Of a stretch of 64,000 nt of DNA, positions 41,178-47,353 are shown piece by piece. Each line of letters starts with the position of its first letter. Position 1 is the first letter of the stretch. The stretch comes from Chryseobacterium sp. (GTDB taxonomy: Bacteria > Bacteroidota > Bacteroidia > Flavobacteriales > Weeksellaceae). The DNA is taken from NCBI RefSeq assembly GCF_008831505.1, contig NZ_CP044507.1, forward strand, positions 868,001 to 932,000, in the 5' to 3' direction. The translations under genes and the position numbers were made by a program. The notes beneath the pieces were generated by a model that was not told the origin of the DNA, searched no databases, and worked only from the letters and a program-made list of their open reading frames with translations.

Positions 41178-41201
41178 GATATTGCGTTGAGAATTAATAC
41201 T

Positions 41202-41225
41202 AAAGAGGCATTGCCTCTTTTTTTT
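41202..41225 (+). terminator. Rho-independent terminator of tamB-tamL
   Basis: AAAGAGG ... CCTCTTT stem with a small loop followed by a T-run. Confidence 0.85.
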
Positions 41226-41236
41226 GTTTCAAATTT

Positions 41237-41259
41237 TTATTTAGAATTATTAAAAATAA
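41237..41259. promoter_or_regulatory. 23-bp palindromic operator-like site before the receptor operon
   Basis: TTATTTAGAAT-T-ATTAAAAATAA: 9 of 11 positions of each arm pair. Centred 24 nt upstream of the -7 box, so a bound protein would block the -33 region. The shape resembles Fur/DtxR-type operators; the identity of the regulator is inference, and the surrounding DNA is AT-rich. Confidence 0.4.
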
Positions 41260-41271
41260 GGGAAATTATTT

Positions 41272-41279
41272 TACATTTG
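41272..41279 (+). promoter_or_regulatory. -7 box of the receptor operon
   Basis: TACATTTG, downstream of the tamL terminator and of the palindrome; leader to the receptor ATG about 150 nt, containing a 43-codon ORF. Confidence 0.5.
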
Positions 41280-41304
41280 CAGCGTCTTTACAGACCTGAA
41301 ACAA

Positions 41305-41436
41305 ATGACTAACTTCTCCTATTACTTATATGCGTTTATGACATTGATACTCTCCAGAGATTTTGATACAGCATTGCGGGGTTTTCAGTCAAACTTAGCA
41401 AAAGGAATTTTAATATCATTTAAAAAATCAGTTTGA
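41305..41436 (+). CDS. possible 43-aa leader ORF
   Basis: Opens with ATG 41305 about 25 nt after the -7 box and ends with TGA overlapping the receptor ATG (TGATG). The peptide (MTNFSYYLYAFMTLILSRD...) has a short hydrophobic start and no recognisable family. Coupled stop/start is what a translated leader would show, but 132 nt open by chance is possible. Confidence 0.35.
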   Translation: MTNFSYYLYAFMTLILSRDFDTALRGFQSNLAKGILISFKKSV

Positions 41437-44180
41437 TGGCAGTGGTAAGGTTTATCATTTTCGTGTTGCCGTTACTTTTATTACCGACCCCTTTATTCGC
41501 ACAACTCAGTGGAGTGGTAGTGGAAGCCGATACACGCAAACCAGTTGGTGGCGTTCGGGTGATGGTTGAAAATACAGGGGTGTGGACGGTGACGGACAAT
41601 GCCGGTAATTTCGTATTACAATACAGCAGCGGTGAGACGGTGGTCTTCTCACGCGTTGGCCTGTTGGAAGAAAAGCGAACTTTCCTACAGCCTTTTTCCG
41701 GGAAAATTACAGTGGAAATGCAGGTAGCTTCAGTCCGGATTAAAGAAGTAACACTTACAGCCAGGAAAAAACACTACTCCGAAATTGAAATCAGGGAAGA
41801 AGCGCTGAAGAACATTCAGGCATTTTCAATAAGCGATGTGCTGGAGCAATTGCCCGGGCAGAAACTTCAGGACCTGAGGCTCAATGAATTTAAACCCATT
41901 GTTTTCCGTTCGGTGAATCCAAATGCGATCGCCGCAAACGGAATGGAGGGTTTCGGTAATAAATCTTTCGGAACTGCGGTGGTGGTAGACGGTATACCTG
42001 TGTCCAACAACGAAAATATGCAGAGCTACGTAGGAAATTACGCTCCTAACTCCAACTCGTTTCTGTATCAGGGATCTGTATTTTCACCCAATACTATTGG
42101 TTTCGGGGTTGCCAACGGTTATAACGGATATTTCTCCAATACCAATTTCGGCGCGGACCTGCGGGAGATTCCTGTTGAGAATATTGAAAGTGTGGAGGTG
42201 GTTCAGGGTATTCCCTCAGCACGTTATGGTGACCTTACTTCCGGCCTGGTCCACATTCACCAAAAAAGCGGCAGCACTCCTTACCGTGCTTACCTGGCAG
42301 TTCGTGAAGGTACCCAGGAATACAACCTGAATAAAGGTTTTAAACTTACCGAACGGATAGGATTCCTGAATGTAAATCTCAATTACCTCAGTTCCAATTC
42401 TGATCCGCGTACCAAATTCAACAATTATCAGCGTCTTGGAACTAATTTGTTATGGACTGTTTATGGTCGAAACCGTAATATCAGCAATTCACTTTCGGTA
42501 AATTACAGCAATAATCTGGACGATGCCAACTTTGAAGCCGAGGACCAGACCCAAAAAATCGTTTACAACAGAAAACGGGATTTCATGATCTCCAACCGTT
42601 TCAACTGGCGTCTAAAGACGGCGCTGGCAGATAACCTGAATGTAAGCGCAAGTTATTCACAGGGTTATCAGAACACCCATGAGTCCAGTATCTACAATTC
42701 GGGTGGGGAAGTTGTTGGAACCAGTTTGGTTGAAGGCGTTTACCTGGGAACTTATTCGCCCGTAGTATACCGCCAGACCAAGGAAGTGGAAGGTAAACCG
42801 GTCTCCATGTTTTTTTCTGCCGATGTAAAAAAGAATCTGAAAACCGAAAAAGGCTGGATCCATAATTTCCTCGTGGGTATCTCGGCACGCGGCAGTGACA
42901 ACCGGGGAGCGGGCCGTTTGGGAAGTCCCGAAACCATTATTGCTACCTTCCAGGGTGGTGGACAGGCCTTCAGACCGTATAATTTCGGCGAAAATGTCAG
43001 GCCGGAATATCAGTTTTCTCTTTTTGCAGAAAACAATATATTCAAGAAATTTGGTGAATTTGTTTTTAATCTGAACGCGGGCGCCAGGCTGGACCGTCAG
43101 GCCGGAACCACCATTCTGCAGCCCAGGCTTAATTCTTATCTTCTTTGGAAAGATCTAAAGGTTCGTGGTGGATTTGGTATCGCTTCAAAAGCACCCGGAA
43201 TCAATATGATTTATACGGGACCGCGGTATTTTGATATGATTTTGACTGATGTCCGTGTACCCGGAGTTTACAACTTCGGAATCGTACAGACTTTCATAGA
43301 CTATTCGGACAACAAGGACCTTAAGCCCAGCAGAAGTAACCGCACAGAGGTGGGATTGGATTACCGTTTACCCTTCGGAAATGTGAGTGTTACGGCATAT
43401 TACAACAAACTGCAGGACGGATTTACGAACGAAAGTTTCGCAGCCAAAAGGGATTTAGCCCAAGTTACGGTGCAGCCGGACGGCACCAATACACCTGCCT
43501 TTCAGATTACGGGTTATGACGATTATTATTTTCTGCAGAACCGTATTGTTAATGCGCTTACCTCTACCGATAAAGGTTTGGAATTTATGATGAACTTTAA
43601 CCGTTTGCCGGTAAACAACCTTTCACTGAATCTTAACGGAAGTTATGTAGAGACCACAAACAACTCCGGAACCGATAAATATTTCAGGTCTACAGACCTC
43701 ACCAAAGATGAAATCTACGGTCTGTACCGCTCTTTTACAAGTAAATACCGCCAGATGATGGTGGGGGCTGCCCTCAATTACCATTTGCCGGGCGCCGGGC
43801 TCCTGGTCACGCTGCGCACCCAGCATTTTATAGTTGATGATGCGTTTGTGCGTAACCCGCGCCTGCTGTATGCTTATATCGATACCAACTTAAACATGGT
43901 GGAGCTTACTCAGCAGCAAATTGATGATCCTTCACAGTTTGCACATATAAAAACCGCAAATGTAGATGAGGTAAATACCAGCCTGGATAAAGTGTACCAC
44001 AATATGAATCTCAAAATATCCAAGGATTTCCGGAATGGATTTAAATTTTCCTTTTACGCAAATAATTTCCTGGATCTAAAGCAAACCGAAACTTATTTTG
44101 AGTCCGGAGTATATAAAGTAAGACCAAAAGGTGGCCTGCTGGATCTGTCCTTCGGAGCCAAGATAGAGTACGAATTTTAA
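41436..44180 (+). CDS. TonB-dependent outer-membrane receptor
   Basis: 914 aa from ATG 41436. Signal peptide (LLLLPTPLFAQ) cleaved near residue 22; carboxypeptidase-regulatory-like domain (about 23-105, LSGVVVEADTRKPVGGV); plug domain (about 125-245, VLEQLPGQKLQDLRL, ENIESVEVVQGIPSARYGDL, SGLVHI); 22-strand barrel ending in Phe (EYEF). Substrate cannot be read from sequence. First main gene of a three-gene operon; the DUF4876 gene follows in 10 nt. Promoter carries an operator-like palindrome. Confidence 0.93.
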   Translation: MAVVRFIIFVLPLLLLPTPLFAQLSGVVVEADTRKPVGGVRVMVENTGVWTVTDNAGNFVLQYSSGETVVFSRVGLLEEKRTFLQPFSGKITVEMQVASVRIKEVTLTARKKHYSEIEIREEALKNIQAFSISDVLEQLPGQKLQDLRLNEFKPIVFRSVNPNAIAANGMEGFGNKSFGTAVVVDGIPVSNNENMQSYVGNYAPNSNSFLYQGSVFSPNTIGFGVANGYNGYFSNTNFGADLREIPVENIESVEVVQGIPSARYGDLTSGLVHIHQKSGSTPYRAYLAVREGTQEYNLNKGFKLTERIGFLNVNLNYLSSNSDPRTKFNNYQRLGTNLLWTVYGRNRNISNSLSVNYSNNLDDANFEAEDQTQKIVYNRKRDFMISNRFNWRLKTALADNLNVSASYSQGYQNTHESSIYNSGGEVVGTSLVEGVYLGTYSPVVYRQTKEVEGKPVSMFFSADVKKNLKTEKGWIHNFLVGISARGSDNRGAGRLGSPETIIATFQGGGQAFRPYNFGENVRPEYQFSLFAENNIFKKFGEFVFNLNAGARLDRQAGTTILQPRLNSYLLWKDLKVRGGFGIASKAPGINMIYTGPRYFDMILTDVRVPGVYNFGIVQTFIDYSDNKDLKPSRSNRTEVGLDYRLPFGNVSVTAYYNKLQDGFTNESFAAKRDLAQVTVQPDGTNTPAFQITGYDDYYFLQNRIVNALTSTDKGLEFMMNFNRLPVNNLSLNLNGSYVETTNNSGTDKYFRSTDLTKDEIYGLYRSFTSKYRQMMVGAALNYHLPGAGLLVTLRTQHFIVDDAFVRNPRLLYAYIDTNLNMVELTQQQIDDPSQFAHIKTANVDEVNTSLDKVYHNMNLKISKDFRNGFKFSFYANNFLDLKQTETYFESGVYKVRPKGGLLDLSFGAKIEYEF

Positions 44181-44190
44181 TTTTGTGAAT

Positions 44191-45549
44191 ATGAAGCAAA
44201 TTATAAGTATTATTTTCCTTTTACTGATGCTGTTTTCATGCAGGAGTGATGATTTTGGCTCCGGCAGTGGCTCCGGAAACCTTGTGCCGGTAACCTTTAC
44301 CGTTCAGGTAAGGTACGACAGCTACTTTGGCAATAAACAGTCCAAGAACGCGGTGGTCACCTTGGTGAATAACAGTTCGGGTGATACCTATACAGCAACC
44401 AGCGGAGATAACGGTGCTGCGGTTTTTGCAACCGTAATTCCGGGAAGCTATAAAGTTACCGTCTCCAAAACGATGCCTGCGGCAGAATTCCTTTCTGCTT
44501 TCGGATACACTTCACCGGTACCTGAGGTACATTTTAATGGGGTACAGGAAAATGTGATCGTAAATGCGAACGTAACTGCTACATCAATTGAGATTAAATC
44601 TGCACGGCTGGGCGATTTGGTAATCAAGCAGGTGTATTATGCAGGATCCCACGCAACGCAGGGAGCCTCGTTCCGGGATCAGTTTATTGAGATCTATAAC
44701 AATTCCAATGAGGTGATCTATGCCGACGGCCTTTTCATCGCGCAGTTATATGGCAAGAACAATATGACCGTAAATGCGACATCACTTGCAAACGGTCAGT
44801 TCGACTGGAGCAAATCTCTGGGTATGACTGCCGGAAGTTCTGCAAATACAGATTATGTATATGCGGATTATGTACTGCAGGTTCCGGGCAGCGGAACACA
44901 GTATCCACTCCAACCCGGGCAGTCACTCGTAATTGCACAGAACGGCTCCAACCATAAAGCGCCGCTGGTAGATAACACCGGTGTTCCGGTCACTGTTTTG
45001 AATCCATCACTTACTGTTGATTTAAGCACTGCAGATTTTGAAGCTTATCTGGGTGATTTCAAACTCTCCATCGGAGATACGGTTTATAAATACGACCTCC
45101 AGAACCCGGCTGTAAAAGATCTTACAATCGCCTATTGGGGAAAAACAGGCTACTGGAACAGTAATAATGACTTTCTGATCGATAATCTGGGCCGCGACAG
45201 TTTCGCTATTTTCAGGATGAATGATTTCGATGCGCTGCCCGATTATGCCGATCCTACAGTAGCTGTTGTTGGGACCAATACAAGATTCTATAAACAGATT
45301 CCTGTTTCTGTAATAATAGACGGGGTAGAGCTGCAGCACTTTAATCCCAATTCCCAACGGCCAAAGATGCTCGGTTCCGCGGTTGATGCTTCCTTTATCA
45401 ATACGGATGCAGCCTTTAATTCCCAGTCTGTCATCAGGAAAACAAAAACGGTTTTGCCGGATGGCCGCCGTATTTTGGAAGACACCAACAATTCCGCAAA
45501 TGATTTTGTTAAACTTTCAATGGCCAACCCGCGTGGCTTTGCGCTATGA
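44191..45549 (+). CDS. DUF4876 lipoprotein
   Basis: 452 aa from ATG 44191. Lipobox LMLFSC (Cys near residue 17). An Ig-like/carboxypeptidase-regulatory domain (about 30-130; AVVTLVNNSSGDTYT, PGSYKVTVSK) is followed by a lamin-tail-like segment (VIKQVYYAGSH, FRDQFIEIYNNSNEVIYADGL near 165-190) and a conserved C-terminal region. DUF4876 lipoproteins accompany TonB-dependent receptors in Bacteroidetes, suggesting a surface-exposed substrate-binding partner, by analogy with SusD; not demonstrated. Overlaps the next gene by 4 nt (ATGA). Confidence 0.85.
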   Translation: MKQIISIIFLLLMLFSCRSDDFGSGSGSGNLVPVTFTVQVRYDSYFGNKQSKNAVVTLVNNSSGDTYTATSGDNGAAVFATVIPGSYKVTVSKTMPAAEFLSAFGYTSPVPEVHFNGVQENVIVNANVTATSIEIKSARLGDLVIKQVYYAGSHATQGASFRDQFIEIYNNSNEVIYADGLFIAQLYGKNNMTVNATSLANGQFDWSKSLGMTAGSSANTDYVYADYVLQVPGSGTQYPLQPGQSLVIAQNGSNHKAPLVDNTGVPVTVLNPSLTVDLSTADFEAYLGDFKLSIGDTVYKYDLQNPAVKDLTIAYWGKTGYWNSNNDFLIDNLGRDSFAIFRMNDFDALPDYADPTVAVVGTNTRFYKQIPVSVIIDGVELQHFNPNSQRPKMLGSAVDASFINTDAAFNSQSVIRKTKTVLPDGRRILEDTNNSANDFVKLSMANPRGFAL

Positions 45550-47102
45550 TGAGATATAAACCGGAATTAACACTAAGTCTAATTCTGTCCTATCTGGCTG
45601 TAGCCGCACAGGAGAAGGACAGCCTGAATTTGATGCAGAACCGGATTTACAGGCCTCAGTTTGATCACCTGAAGACAAATCCGGTGCAATACACAGATTT
45701 ACCGCTGGCCGATTTTACAGAAACCAGCCTAATGCTTAGCAGCCGCGATCTCAATCTGAAACGTACCCAAACCGCCGGGCAAATCACTGAATATGGCTTT
45801 GCAACAGACGGTATCTTTAACATTCATCAGAATCTCCGGCTTTTTGGCAGTTTCAATTACGCTTTCATAAAGGAAAAAGAACTTGCCTACAACCTGACTT
45901 CCCAGCGCACGGAGAATAATATGATTCTAAATCCAAATTATCTGCTGGTACCAAAAGCCGGTGACTGGGAATCACAGGAGTACAAAGTAACCGGTGGTGC
46001 AAGTTACAGGCTTTCTTCTTTTGATTTTGGCGCAACTGTAAACTACGGAAACCGGAGTTCCTTCCGGGATACTGATCCCCGCCCCGGCATCTCCTCCGCC
46101 GATTACTCAGGAAAAGCTTTTGTTGGTTTTAATTTGGGAAAACATCAAATCTCATTTTTTGGACATTTAGGCCGCAAGACAGAAGAGCACGATATAATTT
46201 CAGTGAACGAATACATTAATGCACCCTCGTTTCCGGATACTTTCGTACGATTTTCGGCGGGTTATGGCCGGATAATTAATTTCCCGTCTTACAGTGATTT
46301 CATTTACAAAACTTTTGACCGAGGTTACGGTGCCGGTTATGCTTTCCAAGGTGAGCATGATTTGATAACTGTTAATTCCGGCTACTCAAAATCGATTGAG
46401 ACTTTATTTACAAAAGATGCAGGTGGAGCTGTCTATTTCGAGGAAAGTCTGGAAAACATGAAATACCGCCTAAAAAGTTACTATGCACAAGTGCAGTGGT
46501 TGCGGAGAGGTGCTGAAAAAGATATTATTACTAATTTAGATTTGAAGAGCATTACCGGCGATAATTATAGTGTGCCGGAGCAGGGTCAGAATTTCCGTAT
46601 GACCCTGGACCGGGCAGAACTTTCCAACGCGGTGGTCTGGAAGGACCGGAAGCGTGTGCTTCTGGGTTTAAATACAAGCGCGTCATACTCAGATTTTTCC
46701 GCAACAGACCTTTTAGGAGTTACCTATAAGTACATCAAATCTTTTGATTTACAGTTTGCAGCAAACCGCGACCTCCTTCATTCAACAGAATTTATACTGA
46801 ACCTGGAAGCGGGCGCTGAAGCCTATATTCCCCTCTGTCAAAGCCTGAATTATACAGCGGCATCCTCCAGTGACCTGATCTTCAATAATGTGATTGCGCC
46901 TGATCACGCATTTGAATCAACTACTAAATTAGGTCCGCAACTTACCCTGAACTTTTACCGTCCTTTAACTGCCAGAACAAACCTCAGGATTTTCACCAGT
47001 TTTGCGGCACTATATGCGCTAAGCAGTGAGTTTCAGGATCAAACCGATTATTCCGGTACGCCTAACCTCCGTTTTAATGCAGGAATTTCTTTGTTCTACT
47101 AG
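45546..47102 (+). CDS. DUF6850 outer-membrane beta-barrel protein
   Basis: 518 aa. Signal peptide (LSLILSYLAVAAQ). The rest alternates amphipathic strands rich in Tyr/Phe/Gly and ends with an aromatic C-terminal strand (NAGISLFY), as expected for an outer-membrane barrel. Conserved landmarks include SSRDLNLKRTQTAG, GDWESQEYKVTGGASY and GNRSSFRDTDPRPG. DUF6850 genes travel with DUF4876 and a TonB-dependent receptor. Translationally coupled to the DUF4876 gene by a 4-nt overlap. Transport role is inference. Confidence 0.82.
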   Translation: MMRYKPELTLSLILSYLAVAAQEKDSLNLMQNRIYRPQFDHLKTNPVQYTDLPLADFTETSLMLSSRDLNLKRTQTAGQITEYGFATDGIFNIHQNLRLFGSFNYAFIKEKELAYNLTSQRTENNMILNPNYLLVPKAGDWESQEYKVTGGASYRLSSFDFGATVNYGNRSSFRDTDPRPGISSADYSGKAFVGFNLGKHQISFFGHLGRKTEEHDIISVNEYINAPSFPDTFVRFSAGYGRIINFPSYSDFIYKTFDRGYGAGYAFQGEHDLITVNSGYSKSIETLFTKDAGGAVYFEESLENMKYRLKSYYAQVQWLRRGAEKDIITNLDLKSITGDNYSVPEQGQNFRMTLDRAELSNAVVWKDRKRVLLGLNTSASYSDFSATDLLGVTYKYIKSFDLQFAANRDLLHSTEFILNLEAGAEAYIPLCQSLNYTAASSSDLIFNNVIAPDHAFESTTKLGPQLTLNFYRPLTARTNLRIFTSFAALYALSSEFQDQTDYSGTPNLRFNAGISLFY

Positions 47103-47155: not shown

Positions 47156-47353
47156 TCAGCTCCGTTTGTGATAAGCAAATCTTGGTTTGATTTCGCGGTT
47201 CAGAAAGATTCCCTTGGAGTAGGCCGCCCTGAATTCGTCAAAAACCTCCTGCGGAACATCCAGATAATCATAAACTGAGCCTGAATTATAGACAATGGTC
47301 AGGATCCGCAGTTCGGGTTTGTAATAATATTTATTGATGACGGTAGAAGGCAT
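47156..47353 (-). CDS. KTSC domain protein
   Basis: 65 aa, a single KTSC domain: YYYKPELRILTIVYNSGSVYDYLDVPQEVFDEF, here shown in its YNSGSVYDYLDVP core, and a final KGIFLNREIKPRF. KTSC domains are small beta-barrel-like units of unknown function, often fused to RNA-acting enzymes. Stand-alone here, divergent from cvfB. Confidence 0.85.
   Translation of the reverse strand: MPSTVINKYYYKPELRILTIVYNSGSVYDYLDVPQEVFDEFRAAYSKGIFLNREIKPRFAYHKRS

Follow-up and report, generated by a model that had tools for sequence, protein, structure and literature searches.

Organization of the locus

The DNA analyzed here is a stretch of 64,000 nucleotides from a Chryseobacterium sp. genome (NCBI RefSeq assembly GCF_008831505.1, contig NZ_CP044507.1, positions 868,001 to 932,000 of the forward strand); we refer to this whole stretch as the window, and coordinates are counted from its first letter. 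Within the window, three genes on the plus strand encode a TonB-dependent receptor, a DUF4876 lipoprotein, and a DUF6850 outer-membrane barrel, and a 23-bp palindrome that resembles a Fur box lies upstream of them. A first-pass annotation, made from the sequence alone, had described three tightly coupled genes with a 10-nt gap and then a 4-nt overlap; the coordinates and the Pfam families agree with that description.

The receptor open reading frame (ORF; 41436-44180, plus strand, 914 aa) starts at ATG 41436, and Pfam identified CarbopepD_reg_2 (E = 5.5e-10), Plug (E = 4.8e-9), and barrel (PF00593, E = 8.5e-12) domains in its product. The gene for the DUF4876 lipoprotein (44191-45549, plus strand) begins at ATG 44191, 10 nt after the receptor gene; an alternative start, GTG 44185, would leave a gap of 4 nt, and residues of this protein are numbered here from that GTG. 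Its product passed the gathering cut-off of PF16215 (E = 4.6e-27, 95.7 bits, cut-off 27.9), and the earlier statement that the lipoprotein is not a SusD is borne out by this DUF4876 assignment. The third gene (45546-47102, plus strand, 518 aa) overlaps the DUF4876 gene by 4 nt, and its product, which begins with an N-terminal hydrophobic stretch, matched PF21012 (DUF6850) across the whole profile (E = 1.4e-58).

The palindrome, TTATTTAGAATTATTAAAAATAA, occupies positions 41237-41259 on the plus strand upstream of the promoter, and it was found by a de novo motif, by a scan of the window, and by comparison with a published consensus. The first-pass annotation placed the start of the operon at 41237, which is the first base of this palindrome and not the start of a gene. 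Reading the sequence downstream of the palindrome, we located a likely -7 element, TACATTTG (41272-41279, plus strand), which fits the Bacteroidota TAnnTTTG -7 pattern. In the sister species (genome G307), the operator is identical, the -7 element is kept within a near-identical promoter block, and the leader that follows has diverged. A 43-codon ORF (41305-41436) lies between the promoter and the receptor gene, with its stop overlapping the receptor ATG; we rejected it as a regulatory leader peptide, since it is unconserved in the sister species whereas the operator and promoter are conserved.

The operon had been described as lying between a terminator and a convergent gene. A terminator-like hairpin with a T-run is present at approximately 41199-41224, read by eye in the sequence and not from a scan, and the convergent gene is confirmed as a KTSC gene (47156-47353, minus strand, 65 aa), which forms the boundary and lies outside the operon. 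The next gene after KTSC encodes CvfB.

The Fur-box-like operator

Using the upstream regions of the window operon and of 71 relatives, we derived a de novo motif, TTATTTAgAATnATTcTAAATAA. Sixty-two of the 72 regions exceeded the 99th percentile of the scores obtained from 720 shuffled sequences, 53 scored above all shuffles, and the window's operator was the best-scoring site of the entire set. The motif was trained on the same 72 sequences, many of them from close relatives, and the shuffles preserve base composition only; independent checks therefore weigh more. One match to the operator was found in the window, and none in 100 shuffles. The operator core also matches the Fur-box consensus printed for Riemerella anatipestifer, ATTTAGAATTATTCTAAAT, so that by sequence match the promoter contains a Fur box; binding of Fur at four promoters of that species was demonstrated by electrophoretic mobility shift assay (PMC5609570). 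A further sequence, ATTTATTTTTATTCTAAAT, is quoted ahead of an iron-induced receptor gene (PMC5976166), and it closely resembles operator sites of several Flavobacterium in the motif set. The same paper reports neither a Fur box nor iron control for R. anatipestifer B739_1343, which was considered as a possible relative.

Across the genome (2.76 Mb), a pattern search allowing ≤3 mismatches returned nine places, and the reversed-pattern control returned none. Four of the nine lie at iron-type genes or at this operon: one is the operator described above, two are tandem sites that precede a TonB receptor gene accompanied by a gene for a PepSY-like protein (PF16357, 24.4 bits, just under the cut-off), and one lies ~260 nt upstream of the called FeoB ORF.

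Conservation of the receptor, DUF4876, and DUF6850 genes

We surveyed 296 Bacteroidota genomes drawn evenly across the phylum, which yielded 37 loci from 29 genomes, the window's own included. DUF4876 was detected in 29 of the 296 genomes and DUF6850 above its cut-off in 29, with 27 genomes common to both. In the two genomes with DUF4876 and no DUF6850 profile match (G009 and G035), the neighboring protein falls in the same BLAST cluster (L088 and L095), and in the two genomes with DUF6850 only (G076 and G193), the matches are weak (31 and 27 bits) and occur in far longer proteins. At all 37 loci, the DUF4876 gene shares its strand with a DUF6850 gene and a receptor gene; the receptors fall into a single cluster, and theirs is the conserved first gene. 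At three loci (L081, L086, and L091), one member of the trio was placed from profile coordinates. A few loci are imperfect, with the DUF6850 gene cut by a contig end (L071), split ORFs (L068, L069, and L071), or ABC-transporter genes between the DUF4876 and DUF6850 genes (L083 and L091). DUF4876, DUF6850, and a TonB-dependent receptor thus make up a nearly obligate trio. The first-pass annotation had proposed a single system, to be abandoned if DUF4876 or DUF6850 often occurred without a receptor; with a receptor at 37 of 37 loci, the survey upheld that proposal.

The neighborhoods of the trio differ among lineages. Two loci (L061 and L231) carry ABC, DUF4857, and PepSY genes beside the trio, as in Bacteroides thetaiotaomicron, and L087 (with L093, by cluster) carries genes for an extracytoplasmic function (ECF) sigma factor and FecR, secreted propeller proteins, and M16 peptidases. 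The constant part is the receptor, DUF4876, and DUF6850, and the redox or inner-membrane partner varies. Because the partner genes vary in this way, the outer-membrane module may deliver a complex that is processed differently in each lineage. Pfam analysis of ten recurring neighbors identified no carbohydrate enzymes. A protein of cluster c8, mostly ~300 aa long, adjoins the trio at eight loci (L067, L068, L069, L070, L072, L073, L075, and L080), and the one copy examined had no Pfam match. Much larger proteins that cluster with DUF4876 are encoded downstream of the trio at L089:13349-16954 (1203 aa) and L086:2835-4742 (636 aa).

Linkage and relocation of the di-haem enzyme gene

A search of named genomes yielded 345 relatives, from which we retained the 80 best. 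At 73 of these 80 loci, the ORF immediately after DUF6850 lies on the same strand and belongs to a single di-haem cluster, with a median gap of 3 nt (range -89 to 270). The di-haem gene is divergent from the receptor gene across 75-89 nt at three more loci (L166, L171, and L173), and one locus (L163) stops at a contig edge. The trio itself was called at 75 of the 80 loci; the others are short of one gene owing to a contig end (L109, L123, L163, and L165) or an uncalled ORF (L149).

Gene order in Chryseobacterium defluvii is DUF6850-enzyme-CvfB, and in the window it is DUF6850-KTSC-CvfB, with the KTSC gene filling the interval in which C. defluvii and close relatives carry the di-haem enzyme gene. 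A tblastn search between DUF6850 and CvfB found no remnant of the enzyme gene (best of 115 rows, E = 0.099 over 10 residues). The only CCP_MauG gene of the window genome (G000:C1:1730281-1731411) lies ~815 kb from the operon and is followed by a DUF4920 gene. The view of the operon as self-contained therefore fails, as the gene that normally comes fourth in close relatives is unlinked here. In a tree of 75 proteins, the unlinked enzyme fell inside the operon clade, as sister to the UBA1694 operon copy (support 100/99) and grouped with Chryseobacterium operon copies (99/93). Nine trio-bearing relatives carry three to six CCP_MauG genes, compared with one in the window genome.

Among 59 relatives, nine have DUF4876, and eight of these nine match the enzyme at E ≤1e-60, compared with 13 of the 50 others. 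The matching gene lies ≤1.8 kb from DUF4876 in six of the eight and is unlinked in two; the exception without such a match (G354) has the ABC/DUF4857/PepSY form. The sister species G307 is arranged like the window, with a trio that lacks an adjoining enzyme gene and an unlinked enzyme that is 96% identical. Genome G308 has no trio; it retains a deletion scar (L228:8601-9885) made up of two overlapping ORFs, one encoding the N-terminal ~200 residues of the receptor and the other the C-terminal ~227 residues of the enzyme. Three other genes separate this scar from CvfB, which lies ~4 kb downstream of it; the DUF4876 and DUF6850 genes are gone, and a different enzyme paralogue is present elsewhere. 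The scar indicates that an ancestor within the genus had the receptor and enzyme genes in one place. Genome G309 has neither the trio nor an enzyme match. The enzyme gene is thus outside the operon, yet it is kept in the genus.

A DUF4920 protein, so assigned by Pfam on the window genome's copy, is encoded directly 3' of the di-haem enzyme at L179:7778-8266 and at eight named loci (cluster d20), including where the enzyme is unlinked. A similar four-gene layout occurs in genome G341 (L233:7479-14658), where a SusC/SusD-like pair is followed by a 523-aa protein without a Pfam match and then by an operon-type di-haem enzyme, so that the lipoprotein is of another kind.

Predicted structures of the lipoprotein and the barrel

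The DUF4876 lipoprotein has a lipobox with Cys19 followed by RSDDF. A Cys lies at residues 11-45 in 111 of the aligned homologues, and in 69 of these a pair of neighboring acidic residues is found ≤7 residues from it, a pattern resembling the surface-export signal of Bacteroidota lipoproteins. The domains are a transthyretin/carboxypeptidase-regulatory domain (approximately residues 36-141), an LTD-like region, and the DUF4876 domain (residues 243-443). The first-pass annotation had recognized lamin-tail-like and Ig-like parts; the LTD match lies under its cut-off (E = 4e-6, 27.6 bits, cut-off 34.3), and the Ig-like part is better called by the transthyretin/carboxypeptidase-regulatory name. 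The predicted fold (predicted local distance difference test [pLDDT] score 85.6) matched 4q1z (BT_1938) with Z = 30.1 over 354 residues; the root mean square deviation (rmsd) of this match is high (13.0), and the orientation of the domains is therefore uncertain.

AlphaFold2 modeled the DUF6850 protein with a mean pLDDT of 83.9 and a predicted template-modeling score of 0.83, as a barrel with an N-terminal helix and no plug domain; we counted ~18 long strands by eye from the DSSP list. The structural matches form a long list of barrels led by CymA (Z = 18.6, rmsd 4.8, 287 residues) and FhaC (Z = 17.5). Among the matches listed, Foldseek query TM-scores were 0.28-0.42, and the porin-like folds point to no single family.

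Nature of the di-haem enzyme and its candidate target

The enzyme of the window genome matched PF03150 (CCP_MauG) with E = 3e-59, and of the 77 operon-cluster rows, 75 have two CxxCH haem sites and the remaining two are pieces called in L145. Compared with solved structures over its whole length, the enzyme is most similar to classical di-haem cytochrome c peroxidases (203 bits), followed by 6e1c (150 bits) and MauG (92-99 bits); the best matches of its C-terminal part are 6e1c and MauG. Tyr318 is present in all 75 enzyme rows of >300 aa, the window genome's copy included, and its aligned counterpart in 6e1c, an MbnH, is likewise a Tyr. At this position, the MauG alignment is gapped, and the printed alignments to classical enzymes end one residue earlier. 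The aligned Tyr is presumably a haem ligand where classical peroxidases have Met. MauG-type enzymes build cofactors from protein side chains, and MbnH oxidises a Trp in MbnP.

MbnP genes were found in eight of 13 genomes, the window's being among the 13, as nine copies that each adjoin another CCP_MauG gene; the window genome itself has no match to MbnP (PF20243). The nine MbnP-linked enzymes form a clade apart from the operon enzymes, indicating that the operon enzyme is a parallel branch with a different neighbor.

Within DUF4876, Trp208 (44806-44808) is invariant in the named set (79 of 79 rows, counting the window's). Of the 35 DUF4876 rows from the survey, six have Trp208; it is missing from 26 of the 29 with no enzyme nearby and from three of the six with one. 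We consider Trp208 a candidate target of the enzyme and no more. A strict linkage of this residue with the enzyme was rejected, as it is broken by three loci with the enzyme and no Trp (L063, L065, and L081) and by one with Trp in a genome without a CCP_MauG gene (L066).

Published iron responses and comparison with known systems

Homologous loci respond to iron. In Porphyromonas gingivalis, PG1019-1022 were up 20.8- to 214.5-fold in low iron, and in B. thetaiotaomicron, BT3625-3633 were up ~37- to 128-fold and BT1933-1939 were up 3.5- to 7.4-fold (PMC10434189). A P. gingivalis DUF4876 gene ranked among the genes that respond most strongly to hemin (log2 fold change -5.42; PMC10470040), and an oxidative-stress study tabulates PG1019/1020 (PMC10101095). 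In the text consulted, none of these studies names a substrate. An Elizabethkingia iron transcriptome (PMC7221216) could not be mapped to this operon. Our literature search, whose coverage left out most subscription papers, found no paper that describes the receptor/DUF4876/DUF6850/di-haem set.

The window operon shares with PG1019-1022, BT3625-3633, and BT1933-1939 a TonB receptor and a DUF4876 protein, and those loci are induced by iron depletion; unlike in the four-gene set of the window's relatives, no di-haem enzyme is named for them in the tables consulted (PMC10434189), and BT3625-3633 differs in carrying ABC, DUF4857, and PepSY partners. A 2013 paper described MbnP and MbnH as conserved partners whose role was not yet known, in some cases near TonB transporters (PMC3621798). 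The MbnT/MbnP/MbnH systems of copper-related methanobactin operons likewise combine a TonB receptor, a partner protein, and a MauG-like di-haem enzyme (PMC3621798). The system studied here differs in its DUF4876 partner, its separate enzyme clade, its extra dedicated barrel, and its Fur box in place of copper control; given also that the genome has no MbnP, membership in the MbnP/MbnH group was rejected. The xenosiderophore system XusABC (BT2063-2065) is similar in having a receptor and a lipoprotein and in being induced by iron starvation, whereas its DUF4374 and PepSY proteins contrast with DUF4876, DUF6850, and the di-haem enzyme. Pfam identified only a receptor, DUF4876, and DUF6850 in the window operon, with no DUF4374 or PepSY before KTSC and CvfB, and we rejected XusABC membership as well.

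Interpretation

Starting from what is observed (gene order and its conservation, the match of the operator, the current location and clade of the enzyme, and the scar), we interpret the operon as a Fur-repressed, TonB-dependent importer of a ferric complex that comprises a lipoprotein, a dedicated plug-less barrel, and a redox partner. We assign this interpretation a probability of roughly 0.75, with Fur control, the substrate, the complex, and the enzyme's target being the parts that we infer. Under iron shortage, Fur would dissociate from its box (41237-41259), allowing expression of the three genes. Based on its family, the receptor would import a ferric complex across the outer membrane with energy from TonB. 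The lipobox and the acidic export-like signal suggest that the DUF4876 lipoprotein is displayed on the surface as the receptor's binding or docking partner, and the predicted barrel of DUF6850 would serve the same assembly. The di-haem MauG/MbnH-type enzyme, presumably periplasmic, most likely does redox work for the system: it may process the imported complex oxidatively or oxidise a lipoprotein residue. We have good confidence in iron as the substrate class because of the Fur box and the published low-iron induction of homologues. The earlier description of a set with an unassigned nutrient or function is superseded on the same grounds at the level of the substrate class.

Several results weigh against this interpretation. 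Ten of the 72 upstream regions fell under the 99% shuffle level, and another R. anatipestifer paper quotes a differing Fur-box sequence of the Escherichia coli type (PMC7976709). The other five genomic sites lie near nuoA, a gene for a small protein, a SusC/SusD-like pair, gcvP, and a hypothetical gene (L189, L190, L191, L192, and L193); whether genuine or fortuitous, these sites weaken a one-to-one equation of the motif with iron uptake. The 400-base region upstream of the unlinked di-haem enzyme gene has no Fur box (best score -11.6), and shared control is therefore not seen in this genome. The association with the enzyme also has exceptions. Keeping the best 80 of the 345 relatives biased that set to the query's clade, and even there the di-haem gene is absent at three loci (L159, L168, and L174, with at least 8.3 kb downstream covered), whose genomes hold three to seven CCP_MauG genes. 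Only six of the 37 survey loci have the enzyme close to the trio, and among the 28 other survey genomes with DUF4876, 12 lack a CCP_MauG gene. Inside the genus, the association of trio and enzyme rests on four genomes (two with both and two without the trio), and enzymes of the operon type are also encoded apart from the trio, on their own in G329 and next to SusC/SusD in G341.

Different roles can be considered for the enzyme. It may be a maturase of the MauG/MbnH type that oxidises an aromatic residue of DUF4876, with Trp208 as the best candidate, and thereby creates a metal or ligand site, as MbnH does with MbnP. This is a tentative possibility, to which the invariant Tyr318 aligned with that of 6e1c, the distribution of Trp208, and the precedent of the adjoining MbnP and di-haem genes all point. 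The four loci that break strict linkage argue against it, as do five loci with Trp208 and no enzyme nearby (L074, L078, L159, L168, and L174) and the higher whole-protein similarity to classical peroxidases than to 6e1c or MauG; Trp208 may also be a structural residue specific to the clade. That same similarity, along with the CCP_MauG match, favors an ordinary periplasmic peroxidase that clears hydrogen peroxide during iron import and is linked to the operon by co-expression only, and in this genome the enzyme gene is unlinked and lacks a Fur box. We nevertheless consider this role rather unlikely: Tyr318 probably stands where classical enzymes have a Met haem ligand (the printed alignments stop just short of it), a protein with two haems would be costly under iron starvation unless it serves iron uptake, and the single CCP_MauG gene that the window genome has kept, where its trio-bearing relatives have several, is of the operon clade.

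A departure from iron altogether, namely SusC/SusD-like import of a glycan or peptide, is very improbable. SusC/SusD systems resemble the operon in pairing a lipoprotein with a receptor that has a carboxypeptidase-regulatory N-domain, the receptor has a weak match to TIGR04056, and a similar operator-like site precedes a real SusC/SusD-like pair in this genome. However, the TIGR04056 score of 37.6 bits is far under the cut-off of 368.25, and Pfam identified the lipoprotein as DUF4876, with no SusD domain in the operon. The iron-type operator, the low-iron induction of homologues, and the lack of carbohydrate enzymes among the ten recurring neighbors likewise argue against it, and we rejected the operon as a SusC/SusD glycan importer.

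Within the interpretation as a ferric-complex importer, one more specific scheme is a long shot: the enzyme would oxidise Trp208 into a metal- or chelate-binding residue before the lipoprotein is displayed via or beside its private DUF6850 barrel, making the system an iron counterpart of MbnH/MbnP built from unrelated parts. If that is true, DUF6850 would be a new kind of outer-membrane partner dedicated to a lipoprotein. At the level of the importer itself, DUF4876 and DUF6850, both families of unknown function, gain one testable assignment, iron acquisition, and are linked to a MauG-type enzyme. Since the operon is present in tractable Flavobacterium, F. johnsoniae strain CI04 (L124) among them, and homologous loci in Bacteroides and Porphyromonas are iron responsive, its substrate and mechanism are directly testable.

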